Below, piece by piece: positions 51,060 through 57,535 of a stretch of 64,000 bases of DNA. The position numbers and the translations under genes were made by a program. The notes under the pieces were generated by a model, which was not told where the DNA came from, searched no databases, and saw nothing but the letters and a program-made list of their open reading frames with translations. This DNA comes from Stenomitos frigidus ULC18 (GTDB lineage Bacteria; Cyanobacteriota; Cyanobacteriia; Leptolyngbyales; Leptolyngbyaceae), in the NCBI RefSeq assembly GCF_003003795.1, contig NZ_PVWK01000142.1:124001-188000 (forward strand), in the 5' to 3' direction. How positions within the stretch are numbered: position 1 is the stretch's first letter; each line of letters opens with the position of its first letter.

Positions 51060-52610
51060 CTACGGCTCGACCATTGCATGGGCTGTGTCTGGAGGCACGA
51101 GCCATAAATTCACAATGAAACGGGTTTGCGCCGCATCACTCTCAGCCCAAACAGTACCACCGAGATACATTACCATTTGCTTGACTAACGCTAAACCTAA
51201 CCCAGTCCCACCCTGGCTATAGCGATCGCTGCTTGGAATGCGATAGAACTTGTCAAAAATACGCGGTAATTCAGCAGCAGCAATCTCAGTGCCAGTGTTG
51301 CTAATGCTAAGCTGCACCCGATCGGCGGGTTCGAGGCAAACGGTCACTGTGATCTCGCCGCCAGGAGGCGTGTATTTACAGGCATTTGTCAGCAGCTCTG
51401 CGAGGATGCGCGTCAGAATGTTTGGGTCTGACACTATGGCTGGAAGGTCGGGTGGAATGCTTGTTTGCAGTGCTTGCTCACGCCTCTGGGCACGTTCCTG
51501 AAACACCTCAATACTTTGCAAAAGCCATTGCTCGAGATCTAGAGAAAGCCACTCAATCGGACGTGCCCCGGCTTCAAGCTGCTGTAGCTCTAGCAAATCA
51601 TTCACCAGGGTTAGTTCTCGATTGCACTGGTCACGCAAAATAGACAGGTAGCGGGTCGTGCGATCAGGCGTCGTTGCGGCATCGAGCTCGCTCTGTTGCG
51701 TGAGCGCGATCTCTAGCATCTGAATTGCCATTTTAATGTTTGTCAACGGGGTACGCAGTTCGTGCGAAACGGTACTCAGAAAATCATCTTTGATTTGGTT
51801 CAGTTGTTCCAGTTCTGCCGACCGCAGTTGCAACAACTGGGCCTCTTGAACTGCCCGATCGCGTTCTTCCTGAAGTCGGCGTTGGGTATCGTCTCGGAAC
51901 ACCAGTACAGCGCCCGTAATCAAGCCTTTACGATCTTTAATGGGCGCAATGCTGTCTGTCACGGGAAGGGTGCTACCGTTTTTGGTGGTCAGTAGCAGGT
52001 GTTCGTTCAAAAAAATGATGGTGTCTTCTTGAATCGCCGTCAGGGCGAGGTTGCCGATCGGCAGACCGGTTGTTTCGGAGCTGACGTCGAAGACATCAGT
52101 CAAGTCTCGATCTCTAGCTTCGGTTTGCTGCCAGTCAGTGAGTAGCTCAGCCGAGCGATTCAGAAACATGACGCGTCCTTGAGTATTGACAACAATGATG
52201 CCGTCGCCAATGCTGCGAAGGACGGTAGACAACAGTTGTTCTCGTTCGTAGCGGTTGAGGGCAGTTTCGATCGCCACATACAGTTCCTGTTCCGTCACGG
52301 GCTTGAGGAGATAGCCGAACGGCAGGGTAACTTTTGCTCGCTCTAAGGTGCTTTTGTCAGAATGCCCGGTGATGAAAATAACCGGAATTTGCAAACGGTC
52401 CCAGATTTGCTCCGCTGCCTGGATGCCATCCGTTTCACCCTGAAGCTGAATATCCATCAGCACCAGATCGGGTTGCAGTGTCACAGCGCTTTCAAACGCT
52501 TCTGTTGCTGAACTGACAATAGCTGCTACGGTATAGCGCAGAGACTCCAGATTCTCCTGTAAGTTAGCAGCAAGAATGTATTCGTCTTCTACGACTAAGA
52601 TTTGAGTCAT
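51060..52610 (-). CDS. Hybrid REC-PAS-histidine kinase
   Basis: A 516-residue signalling protein. The receiver is at 1-120, with phospho-acceptor D53 (LVLMDIQLQ). A PAS domain lies at about 128-245 (DGIIVVNTQGRVMFLNRSAE), then HisKA with its His in STVSHELRTPLTNIK (about 282) and HATPase with NACKYTPPGGE, and GGTGLGLALVKQM (to about 500). The receiver first, kinase second layout suits a relay: a partner kinase phosphorylates the receiver, which gates this kinase. Third in the operon behind the ETR1-like kinase and the broken response regulator. Its receiver closely resembles that of the broken gene. Confidence 0.93.
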   Translation of the reverse strand: MTQILVVEDEYILAANLQENLESLRYTVAAIVSSATEAFESAVTLQPDLVLMDIQLQGETDGIQAAEQIWDRLQIPVIFITGHSDKSTLERAKVTLPFGYLLKPVTEQELYVAIETALNRYEREQLLSTVLRSIGDGIIVVNTQGRVMFLNRSAELLTDWQQTEARDRDLTDVFDVSSETTGLPIGNLALTAIQEDTIIFLNEHLLLTTKNGSTLPVTDSIAPIKDRKGLITGAVLVFRDDTQRRLQEERDRAVQEAQLLQLRSAELEQLNQIKDDFLSTVSHELRTPLTNIKMAIQMLEIALTQQSELDAATTPDRTTRYLSILRDQCNRELTLVNDLLELQQLEAGARPIEWLSLDLEQWLLQSIEVFQERAQRREQALQTSIPPDLPAIVSDPNILTRILAELLTNACKYTPPGGEITVTVCLEPADRVQLSISNTGTEIAAAELPRIFDKFYRIPSSDRYSQGGTGLGLALVKQMVMYLGGTVWAESDAAQTRFIVNLWLVPPDTAHAMVEP

Positions 52611-52675: not shown

Positions 52676-53087
52676 CTACCAACAGTCTAAGGCAGTTGCG
52701 ATCGCGATCTGCAGATCTTGCACGTTGACAGGTTTGAGCATGTAACCAAAGGGAAAGGTTTTTTGGGCGCGTAGGACGGTGCTTTGGTCGGAGTGCCCAG
52801 TGACAAAAATAATCGGAATCTGTAGTTGGTTCCAGATAAAGGTAGCCGCTTGAATGCCATCGCCTTGATGCTCAAGCCGAATGTCCATCAGGCACAATCT
52901 GTGGGCGCAGGCTGACTGCTTTGCGAACTGCCTCTTCGACAGAAGCAGCGATTTCTGGCACGTCATAGCCCAAGCACTCTAGTTCTTCTTGCAGGGTGGC
53001 AGCAAGCATGTAGTTGTCTTCTACAATCAAGACGCATAAGCGCCTGGGAGGCGTTTTAGTGGGTAGAGCTTCACAATAAGGTTCCAT
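52676..53087 (-). pseudogene. Single-domain response regulator, frameshifted
   Basis: Receiver domain in two frames. The first part reads LCVLIVEDNYMLAATLQEEL...SLRPQIV and stops at 52872. The rest, LMDIRLEHQGDGIQAATFIW...FGYMLKPVNVQDL, follows in the next frame. One extra base (a second C in the GTGCCTGATGG coding sequence, near 52891) explains it: without it the protein reads IVLMDI with the phospho-Asp. The break falls immediately before the phosphorylation site, so neither half is functional. It may be a sequencing error. It lies three bases after the sensor kinase stop. Confidence 0.85.
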
Positions 53088-53090
53088 TTT

Positions 53091-56033
53091 TTAGGTTCTG
53101 GTGAAGGAAATACTAATGATCACTCCCTGCTGAGAGCTAATCTCTAAGGTGCCCCGAAGTTGTTTGACTAAGCCTTTCACCAGAGTGATCCCCAACGCTT
53201 TTGTTTGCTTGAGGTTGAAGTCTTGAGGCAACCCAATGCCGTTATCTCGCACACAGAGAGTCAGGCGCTGGTCGGGGTGTTGTTGAAAAAGCACTTGAAT
53301 CTCACCCGCGCGCTTTTTGGGAAAGGCATATTTCAATGCATTAGAGACCAGTTCGTTGATGATGAGACCGCAGGGAATAGCAGTATCAATATTGAGCGCG
53401 ATCGGTTCGATTTGTGTCATCAGTTTAATTTGATTGGCACGAGTGTTGTAAGAGTCGAAGAGGTGAGCGGTGAGATCGGCGATGTATTGGGCAAAATCGA
53501 TGTTTGCCAGATCTTTAGAGCCGTAGAGTTTTTCGTGCACCAGGGCGATCGACGCAATCCGGTTCTGGCTCTCTTTTAAAGTTGCAATCACTTGTGGATC
53601 GGACGATCGTCGCGACTGCATTTGCAGCAAGCCATCCACAATACCCAGATTGTTTTTCACCCGATGGTGAATTTCTTTGAGGAGCACTTCTTTTTCTTTC
53701 AGAGATGCCTGAATGACCGCTTCTGCCTGCTTCCGCTCTGTCACATCCTGATGTACAGCGACTAAGACAGTGCCATAGGTAGGATGTTCAAACAAGGAAG
53801 CGATGCCTTGCCCCCAAAAAGGAGTCCCATCCTTTTTGACATTGTGGACTTCATAAGTTGCTTCACCCTGCTGAAGAATGGTCGTGGCAATGGCTTGATG
53901 AGCTGCTACGGGGGTGGCTTCTGCGTCTGCGTAATTCACGATCGAGATATGTTTACCCTTGAGTTCTCCGGCATCATAACCAAACATCCGCTCAAACTTA
54001 GGATTGGCATAAACAATGGTGTCGTCAGCCGACTTGACCATGCAAACGCCCTCAGCCATGTTCCGGACAATGAGGCTCTGAAGCTCCAGCTCTACTTCTG
54101 CTTGTTTGAGTCGGGTGATATTGCGAAGACTGACCACAACGCCTGAAACGGCTTGATAGGCATTGTCAAAGTAAGGATTATAGGTAACGCTCAAAAATTG
54201 CGGTTTTAGAGTTGCGTAGTCCGCCCACATTTCATACTGCACAACTTGTCCGGCTAAACATTGGTCTAATCGGGGCTTAATCGTCGTTTCATAAACGTTC
54301 ACCGGTAAGAGTTCGCTGACTGGATGCCCCACAATTTCATCCTGCGGTTTGTTGTACCAATTGACATAGGTTTGATTGACGACTTGATAAACGTAGTTAC
54401 GATCGATCAACGAAATAGCGTCGGTGGTGGCAGAGACGATCCGCTCATACCGTCGCAGAGCTTCTTCTGCCTGCTTGCGATCGCTGATGTCGCGCACAAT
54501 CACCAAGACCTCGTCTTCCCCGCAGGGTATGATGCGAGCCTCTTCAAACTGAAGGTTGCCATCAAGCCTGAGTTGATATTCATACACCTGCAAGGCGCGG
54601 GTTTGCAGCGCCTGCTGCACATACTGCATACGTTCTTGGGCTTTGTCGGCTGGCAAAATGGCATGGATGTTGTTACCGATCACCATCCGACTGGCATTGT
54701 ACGGCAGCACGTTCCCGGTCGTCTGAATATCCAGGTAGGTGCCATCTTGCTTCATGCGGATCAGTAAGTCTGGAATAGCTTGAATCAGCGCCCGATTCCG
54801 GACTTCACTTTGACGCAAGGCTTCTTCGGTCTGCTTCAGATCATCAATATCTAGCCGCATGCCATCCCACACGATCGTTCCATTGTCCAGTCGGCGAGGC
54901 ATTGAGCACAGCCGCAACCAGCGGGTCTTGCCGTTGGGTAACTGCTCTCGCACCTGAAGATCAAAGACAGAGAGATTCTGTGCCGATTCTTCTCCTTTTT
55001 GAAGTACAGCAGGGAGATCCTCTTCAACCACCAGCTTAAACATGAGGCTGGAGTCTGCCAAAACTGCGTCTGGTTTGAGTCCACTCACCCGCTCAATGCC
55101 AGCGCTGACGTAGGTGTAGTGGTAGCGCCCATCCGGTTCGCGCCGCAACTGGTACAGGTAGCCATTGGGGATGTTGTCGCCGATCGCCCGCAAAAATGCC
55201 TCCCGCTCTTGCAAGGCGTGTTCGGCTCGTTTGCGATCGGTAATATCGGTCACCCGCACCAGATGCATCACTCGTTCCGCAACGGTAATCGGCTTGACAG
55301 CAAGATTGCCCCAGAAAATATTGCCCTGACAGGTCACATATTCAATTTCGCGGCTCCAAAAGCCCTTCGCCTGCATTTCAGCCCCAATCTCTTGCAACTC
55401 ATCCTGAGAAAACTGGTAGCGTTGCAGCATATGCCCTTCAATGCCAAGCAGATGAGTTTTGTCAACGGCTTGAAAAAGGTCTACTGCACGTTGATTGCAG
55501 TCCAGGGTGAATAATGTTTGTGCGTCAACCAGAAACAGCGCATCTGCCGATTCGTTAAAAATTGCCTCGCGTAAATCTCGGTTACGCCTAAGTTCAGCTT
55601 CGATGCGCGTGCGTTCGGCGACTTCTTGTTGCAATGCCTCGTTGGCTAACGCCAGTGCTGTAGGGCTGGGCAGTGCCAGAGCTTGGGGAACGATCGGCAC
55701 AAGCAGCACGGCTGTCGTCACTGAAACCATCGCCGTCAATAGTTTGACGCTCCCTGACAGCCAGTAGGTGGGATACCAGAGCGTCCAAATTTCTAACAGG
55801 TGAGTGGTGCCGCAAGCCACAATAAAGGCACTAAACAGCCAAAAAATCCAGATGAAAGGCAGATCCGATCGCCTGCGGACAAAATAGAACAGCGTCAGTG
55901 GAATGGAGTAATAGGCAAGGGCGATGAGAGCGTCTGACAGAATATGCAGCCCTACAAGCTCTGGTTTCCAGAGATAGCAGTGCCCATGAGGCATAAACAA
56001 ATTGCTTCCAGAAAGGCTTGTCCAGTTCAGCAT
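53091..56033 (-). CDS. ETR1-like (ethylene-receptor-type) multi-PAS sensor histidine kinase
   Basis: A 980-residue membrane sensor. Residues 30-120 are three hydrophobic helices matching the plant ethylene-binding domain: D34, Y41, P45, I71, C74 and H78 correspond to ETR1 D25, Y32, P36, I62, C65 and H69, with identical spacing. Five PAS/PAC units follow (about 150-760, each closed by a DITDRKRAE-like boundary). A HisKA_2-type kinase then has EIHHRVKNNLGIVDGLLQMQ (about 785-805) and HATPase NELVSNALKYAFP with DNGIGLP. Synechocystis Slr1212 (SynEtr1) is the known relative. Copper and ethylene binding are predicted by residue conservation. Head of the signalling operon; ATG at 56031-56033. Confidence 0.93.
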   Translation of the reverse strand: MLNWTSLSGSNLFMPHGHCYLWKPELVGLHILSDALIALAYYSIPLTLFYFVRRRSDLPFIWIFWLFSAFIVACGTTHLLEIWTLWYPTYWLSGSVKLLTAMVSVTTAVLLVPIVPQALALPSPTALALANEALQQEVAERTRIEAELRRNRDLREAIFNESADALFLVDAQTLFTLDCNQRAVDLFQAVDKTHLLGIEGHMLQRYQFSQDELQEIGAEMQAKGFWSREIEYVTCQGNIFWGNLAVKPITVAERVMHLVRVTDITDRKRAEHALQEREAFLRAIGDNIPNGYLYQLRREPDGRYHYTYVSAGIERVSGLKPDAVLADSSLMFKLVVEEDLPAVLQKGEESAQNLSVFDLQVREQLPNGKTRWLRLCSMPRRLDNGTIVWDGMRLDIDDLKQTEEALRQSEVRNRALIQAIPDLLIRMKQDGTYLDIQTTGNVLPYNASRMVIGNNIHAILPADKAQERMQYVQQALQTRALQVYEYQLRLDGNLQFEEARIIPCGEDEVLVIVRDISDRKQAEEALRRYERIVSATTDAISLIDRNYVYQVVNQTYVNWYNKPQDEIVGHPVSELLPVNVYETTIKPRLDQCLAGQVVQYEMWADYATLKPQFLSVTYNPYFDNAYQAVSGVVVSLRNITRLKQAEVELELQSLIVRNMAEGVCMVKSADDTIVYANPKFERMFGYDAGELKGKHISIVNYADAEATPVAAHQAIATTILQQGEATYEVHNVKKDGTPFWGQGIASLFEHPTYGTVLVAVHQDVTERKQAEAVIQASLKEKEVLLKEIHHRVKNNLGIVDGLLQMQSRRSSDPQVIATLKESQNRIASIALVHEKLYGSKDLANIDFAQYIADLTAHLFDSYNTRANQIKLMTQIEPIALNIDTAIPCGLIINELVSNALKYAFPKKRAGEIQVLFQQHPDQRLTLCVRDNGIGLPQDFNLKQTKALGITLVKGLVKQLRGTLEISSQQGVIISISFTRT

Positions 56034-56357: not shown

Positions 56358-57535
56358 TTACAGAATGGCTTGAACGATCGCCACCGTTTCCTCAATCATG
56401 CGTTCTTCGCGAAACATTTTTTCTGCTTGTTGTTTACATGCCAACCCCACCTGTTGCCGTCGCGTTGCATCACTTACCCAGTCCTTCAACGTTGTAACCA
56501 ACTCTTGAATCGTGGACTGAGGATTGCCAAACATCGGTGAAGTCAGGAGTTGTCCCGTATCGCCCAATCCTTCAGGCACACCGCTGACTGCTGATGCCGC
56601 TACAGGAAGCCCTTTTGCCATCGCCTCCATCATCCCAACGGCAACCCCTCCGATTCAGACGGCAGCAAAAAAATGTCGCTGGCATCCAGCCACTCATTAA
56701 TCTGACCCAGTTCGCCCAAAAACTTGACGCGATCGCCCACACCCGCTTGCTTCACCATTTGCTTAAAGTGATCCGCCAGTGTGCCTGTGCCTGCCCACGC
56801 AAAGTAGAGATGCTCCCAGGCAGGTGTTTGCTTCAGTCGCTTGATGGCACCAAGCTGATACTGATAGCCCTTGATGATGTCCATCCGAGCCGCCGTAAAG
56901 CAGACGACCGCATCATCAGGAATGCCCCACTGCTGGCGGAGACGCGATCGCACCTGTAAATCTGGCGGCTCAAAATAGGTGGCTGGTCGCCCACAGTAAA
57001 TCACCTGCCCTTTGTCCTCCGCCAGCCCAAACAGCTTTTGCAACAGTCGCAGGTTATCTTGCGACACCGCAATTACTGCCCTGGCATCGCGATACTGTTG
57101 TGCCAATTCTGCATAAGCTTCGGGCACTTCTTTTGGCTTAATCGGATGCACCAGATGTTCCACCACGATGAAGGGAATGCCATACTTGATCGCAGCCCGC
57201 TTAGGAAAAAAGTTGGCAACCGGACCACCATTGCTCACAATCAGCAAATCCGGTTTTGCTTCAGCAATGATTTTTTCTGCCTCTGCCGCCTTTGCGCCTT
57301 CCAGCCAAATATGCTTCTGAACGCCAACTTGCTTTTGCTGCGCCACGAACCAATCCGCTCGTTGCCGCGTTTTCTCCATCCCTTCGGAACCAAAAAGCTC
57401 TACTAACGCGTCAGGAATATCCTGCACATGCGTCATCTGGTAGCCTAGAGTGGCTAAGGCACACACAATGGCATGGTTATACGGCAAAAGACCGCCGATC
57501 GCAGGCGACGCATACAGCAGAATATGTTTGGTCAC
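56358..57535 (-). pseudogene. Glycosyltransferase family 4, split by frameshift
   Basis: Two frames together make one GT-B enzyme. The first (57535 to 56630) carries the N-terminal half, VVCFTAARMDIIKGYQYQLG and INEWLDASDIFLLPSESEGLPLG. The second (56633 to 56358) continues MMEAMAKGLPVAASAVSGVP to the end. The conserved donor-binding motif ESEGLPL-x-MMEAMAKG spans the break at GGATGATGG, where one base seems missing. As read, the first product lacks its final helix-rich subdomain. Stop and ATG overlap, so reinitiation could still give two chains. GTG start at 57535. Sequencing error is possible. Confidence 0.8.

Follow-up and report, generated by a model that had tools for sequence, protein, structure and literature searches.

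Whether a bacterial kinase with the copper-site residues of the plant ethylene receptors responds to ethylene, and through which partner it would signal, is the question raised by a gene on the minus strand at 53091..56033 of the window (the whole 64,000-nucleotide stretch of Stenomitos frigidus ULC18 DNA analyzed here). To our knowledge, the outputs of bacterial ethylene receptors are little known beyond Synechocystis and Azospirillum. Kinases with an ethylene-binding domain (EBD) are already known to be common in cyanobacteria, and the gene by itself is one among many cyanobacterial ethylene-receptor homologues. Taken together with its relatives, the locus offers a defined receptor-partner pair whose close orthologues exist with and without the copper-site residues, and this set would let the ethylene dependence of the pathway be probed by comparison. 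New here are a correction of the operon, a paralogous two-kinase pair in the same genome and the finding that the nearest orthologues have lost the ethylene site more than once.

Domain architecture and copper-site residues

The open reading frame encodes an ethylene-receptor-type sensor kinase of 980 aa. Its EBD (residues 26-121; 55671..55958, minus strand) is followed by five PAS units in tandem (residues ~145-772; 53718..55601, minus strand) and by a HisKA_2 phosphoacceptor domain with HATPase_c (53106..53675, minus strand). In the Pfam scan the EBD matched the ETR1_N profile (PF25487) with E=9.3e-43 and 144.9 bits against a curated cut-off of 27, which at the sequence level is homology and not chance. 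For residue matching and for the identity to ETR1 we used what we take to be the Arabidopsis ETR1 sequence, and the list of required residues is in part the one that Wang and colleagues reportedly gave in 2006. Seven residues are needed for ethylene binding in ETR1 (PMC6682694; PMC11819568), and all seven are present in the window kinase: D25, Y32, I35, P36, I62, C65 and H69 of ETR1 correspond to D34, Y41, I44 and P45 in helix 1 and I71, C74 and H78 in helix 2. K91 of ETR1 corresponds to K97 in helix 3. The preliminary description had placed D34, Y41, P45, I71, C74 and H78 at these same positions, with the D-to-C spacing of 40 residues found in ETR1; its claim that all residues are there holds, and I44 (ETR1 I35) is a required residue absent from its list. 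The complete set is the family default and thus unremarkable, as 95 of 123 distinct cyanobacterial EBDs possess it. About a fifth of the domains are short of at least one residue, so the seven-residue test is not empty even though the full set is normal.

An AlphaFold2 model of the domain alone (pLDDT 71, pTM 0.43, moderate confidence) has three long helices at residues 24-54, 60-84 and 88-118, as expected of a three-transmembrane-helix EBD. In the full-length model, which has low global confidence (pLDDT 66, pTM 0.29), the three long helices lead through a connecting helix into five alpha/beta units, and these are followed by a pair of long helices and an alpha/beta part resembling an ATPase. 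Searches of solved structures with the window EBD, alone and as a profile, returned no match. When the PAS region was cut into five, every segment alone scored above a Pfam PAS gathering score, and five PAS stretches were also picked up by TIGR00229. HisKA_2 (PF07568) lies at residues 787-862 (E=2.5e-29) and HATPase_c (PF02518) at 890-976 (E=2.3e-10), which makes the protein a HisKA_2 histidine kinase; the residues of its phosphoacceptor motif KEIHHRVKNN are invariant in ten orthologues. The Pfam scan found no GAF family match in the kinase at E<=0.01. The protein therefore belongs neither to the plant ETR/ERS type (GAF followed by HisKA; the kinase here is HisKA_2) nor to the SynEtr1 type of light and ethylene receptor, which has a chromophore-binding GAF. 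The earlier reading of five PAS units and a HisKA_2-type kinase, unlike the GAF-HisKA of ETR1, is thus borne out by Pfam and TIGR00229.

We also considered the conserved N-terminal motif PHGxCYLW as a second copper site. The motif disappears together with the copper-site residues, and all conserved positions go when the domain decays; since, in addition, the single N-terminal cysteine has already been proposed as a likely dimer disulfide (PMC6682694), this candidate was dropped. Copper-transporting ATPases in the genome were likewise discarded as support, being present nearly everywhere and hence uninformative.

Copper physiology is central to cyanobacteria and every copper-site residue is retained, which would also fit a domain that responds to the supply of Cu(I), or to some other gas or small olefin via the copper site, with ethylene incidental. 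We regard such a role as quite improbable, given that both bacterial members assayed so far, SynEtr1 (PMC6682694) and AzoEtr1 (PMC11819568), bind ethylene. According to the same papers these two proteins have the same binding residues. By analogy with ETR1, SynEtr1 and AzoEtr1 we infer copper and ethylene binding for the window EBD, and ethylene as its ligand is likely.

Loss and conservation of the ethylene-binding domain

A tree built on PAS4-5 and the kinase region places the window protein in a six-member clade with support 100/99. The EBD is intact in the window protein, L005 and L007 and decayed in L006, L064 and L012. Helices 2-3 are deleted in L006, L064 carries D25N, I62T and H69Y, and L012 carries Y32S, I62L and C65N (ETR1 numbering); all three keep the PAS and kinase domains. 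L006 and L064 group together (support 100/100) and L012 groups with L005 and L007, so that the loss of residues or helices would need at least two events on this tree. Because half of the clade has lost EBD residues or helices and kept PAS and kinase, ethylene input is probably not required for the kinase to work.

These losses, together with eight Nostocaceae relatives that retain the kinase and its partner gene and have no EBD at all, could mean that the window protein is mainly a PAS-driven cytoplasmic sensor and its EBD either a non-essential membrane anchor or a relic not yet decayed. The rates of change make this unlikely. EBD identity to the window protein is 84-86% in the intact L005, L007 and L008 and 61-70% in the three decayed orthologues, whereas kinase identity is 70-82% across both groups. 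Only dN was compared because dS is near saturation. Between the window protein and the outgroup L008, dN is 0.094 in the EBD, 0.153 in the kinase and 0.557 in PAS4-5. The EBD of L064 and L012 has a dN to L008 of 0.193 and 0.215, about twice the window value, while their kinase values (0.177 and 0.152) are similar to that of the window. The EBD of the window protein and its intact orthologues is thus conserved at least at about the level of the kinase, unlike a relic. Since the domain is conserved in the window lineage and evolves about two times faster in the decayed orthologues, the simplest reading is purifying selection on the EBD in the former and its relaxation in the latter.

A broader proposal is that ethylene input may be an optional module that has been dropped repeatedly from a conserved phosphorelay running from HisKA_2 to REC-PAS-HisKA, with the clade as a natural mutant series. 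We put this forward tentatively, at somewhat below an even chance. If it is true, the series of intact, C65N, D25N plus H69Y and helices 2-3 deleted would make ethylene-dependent and ethylene-independent versions of the pathway directly comparable.

Neighboring genes and the phosphorelay partner

The preliminary description had the gene heading an operon with a response regulator and a hybrid kinase. The second kinase stands: it is an intact REC-PAS-HisKA-HATPase_c protein of 516 aa (51060..52610, minus strand), identified by Pfam and by comparison with relatives and a paralogue. The response regulator does not stand as described. This single-REC gene (52676..53087, minus strand), whose start codon is 3 bases past the kinase stop, has in the assembly a frame broken around 52890, immediately before the phosphoacceptor Asp, and Pfam finds two REC fragments. 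In every one of the 22 relatives that have a receiver at this position, both halves lie in one continuous frame. A programmed frameshift was rejected, as there is no obvious slippery or stop signal and no shift in relatives. Upstream of the receptor, a glycosyltransferase gene (56358-57535, minus strand) is also frameshifted into two frames (301 and 91 aa). Two frameshifts within 5 kb make the assembly quality doubtful here. They might otherwise indicate that the locus is decaying and has no working signal chain, which we consider very improbable: both large kinases are intact with their catalytic motifs, a separate response regulator is absent from most relatives anyway, and two frameshifts so near each other could equally be assembly errors. 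An Rfam scan around the locus found no RNA element and so gave no hint of a known small RNA, and promoter and terminator scans at the locus gave matches no more numerous than in shuffled sequence.

A REC-PAS-HisKA kinase lies downstream in 20 of 23 relatives, a set collected by similarity to the window kinase. The three-gene arrangement of the window recurs in L005 and L007, and most other relatives have only the two kinases. Once its two fragments are joined, the window regulator shares 59.5% identity with the receiver of the second kinase, which suggests that the small regulator may have arisen by tandem duplication of that receiver. In the window's own genome, a paralogue on C160 (EBD-PAS-PAS-HisKA_2, residues intact) has the same two-kinase pair, also intact and with overlapping genes. 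Among the 107 EBD proteins taken irrespective of their likeness to the window protein, a REC plus HisKA gene comes next after 7 of 10 HisKA_2-type EBD kinases versus 3 of 77 HisKA-type ones (Fisher p=2e-6, overstated, as several of the ten HisKA_2-type cases are closely related and not independent). The partner pairing tracks the kinase type and not the ethylene domain, since the Nostocaceae relatives keep the pair without an EBD. Because the small response regulator is frameshifted, the REC-PAS-HisKA protein is probably the working partner of the two.

Taken together, the ETR1_N match, the seven residues, the conserved EBD, the conserved partner pairing, the C160 pair and the ethylene binding of SynEtr1 and AzoEtr1 support an ethylene receptor kinase, and we think it fairly likely that the window protein is a membrane-bound ethylene receptor that signals through the neighboring REC-PAS-HisKA kinase. 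In such a dimer with three transmembrane helices, Cu(I) would be held by C74 and H78 and positioned by D34, and ethylene would bind at that Cu(I). Binding would change how helix 3 (K97) is coupled to a signaling rod of five PAS domains, which would add cytoplasmic cues and set the autophosphorylation of the HisKA_2 histidine. The phosphate would then pass to the receiver of the neighboring kinase, a step that the gene order makes plausible, and also to the small response regulator where that gene is intact; the REC-PAS-HisKA kinase would in turn control an output.

Distribution in cyanobacteria and comparison with known receptors

An EBD over the Pfam cut-off was found in 72 of 292 genomes sampled across Cyanobacteriota, with up to nine per genome, and in none of 14 control genomes. 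The window kinase is an ordinary member of this known and common cyanobacterial family. Its own genome has four EBDs: besides the window gene and the C160 paralogue, one on C30 (L058, 4869-8039) has the order EBD-GAF-GAF-HisKA-REC and N at the D25 position, and one on C16 has intact residues and lies near a contig end, its frame stopping soon past the domain. D25N alone, with the other six residues kept, is also seen in L045, L172, L173 and L175, and an EBD with only this change may be a functional variant. Among 107 EBD proteins chosen without regard to likeness to the window protein, 77 have HisKA, 10 HisKA_2 and 4 GGDEF by approximate, motif-based classes, the remainder being cut or unclassed. 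A wide range of output domains in bacterial EBD proteins has already been published (PMC7700396). Intact EBDs occur on GGDEF-motif proteins in L106, L117, L087 and L165, and the GGDEF-motif sequences suggest that ethylene may control cyclic di-GMP. In L127 (minus strand) an intact EBD is fused straight to a PP2C/SpoIIE-type phosphatase-like part (GGDYYDVL and GDVTGHG, read by eye), which would be a non-kinase output. L167 and L168 (minus strand) have an EBD-like domain with C65 changed to G, a PAS and a methyl-accepting chemotaxis signaling-like domain, with a receiver-containing protein of >900 aa coming next; these are EBD-like putative chemoreceptors. Three genomes (L119, L124 and L132) have tandem EBD genes, namely a kinase of ~520 aa and an EBD-PAS-GAF-GAF-HisKA-REC protein, then a REC gene.

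Arabidopsis ETR1 shares the EBD (46.8% identity over 94 residues of our assumed ETR1 sequence) and differs in having GAF, HisKA and a receiver. It signals through CTR1 (PMC7700396). GeiEtr1 and GeiEtr2 of Geitlerinema PCC 7105 have a cyanobacterial EBD with all seven residues and the single N-terminal cysteine; unlike the window protein they contain GAF, and GeiEtr2 is a hybrid with a C-terminal receiver (PMC6682694). SynEtr1 (Slr1212, UirS) of Synechocystis sp. PCC 6803 is also a cyanobacterial EBD kinase with a response regulator downstream, and signals through Slr1213, a regulator controlling transcription; it differs in its chromophore-binding GAF, absent from the window protein, and is a light receptor as well (PMC6682694). 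The preliminary description had cited Slr1212 as a precedent for ethylene sensing in phototaxis. The precedent is real (PMC6682694), but nothing at the locus ties the window gene to phototaxis, pili or biofilm, and a phototaxis role would be an analogy with Slr1212. AzoEtr1 of Azospirillum brasilense is the second bacterial precedent: its ethylene binding has been measured, and a response-regulator gene overlaps its own (PMC11819568). Read from the Sp7 plasmid record, it is EBD-PAS-HisKA with all seven residues; its N-terminal EBD is 59.7% identical to that of the window over 119 residues, and in both proteins PAS and then a kinase follow, with a response-regulator gene directly downstream. 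AzoEtr1 is shorter (525 aa) with one PAS and a kinase of the HisKA and not the HisKA_2 class, and it has a single response regulator with no REC-PAS-HisKA partner reported (PMC11819568). The window locus therefore shares with SynEtr1 and AzoEtr1 the input domain and the logic of a kinase with an adjacent receiver, and differs in its kinase class and in that its receiver is part of a second kinase.
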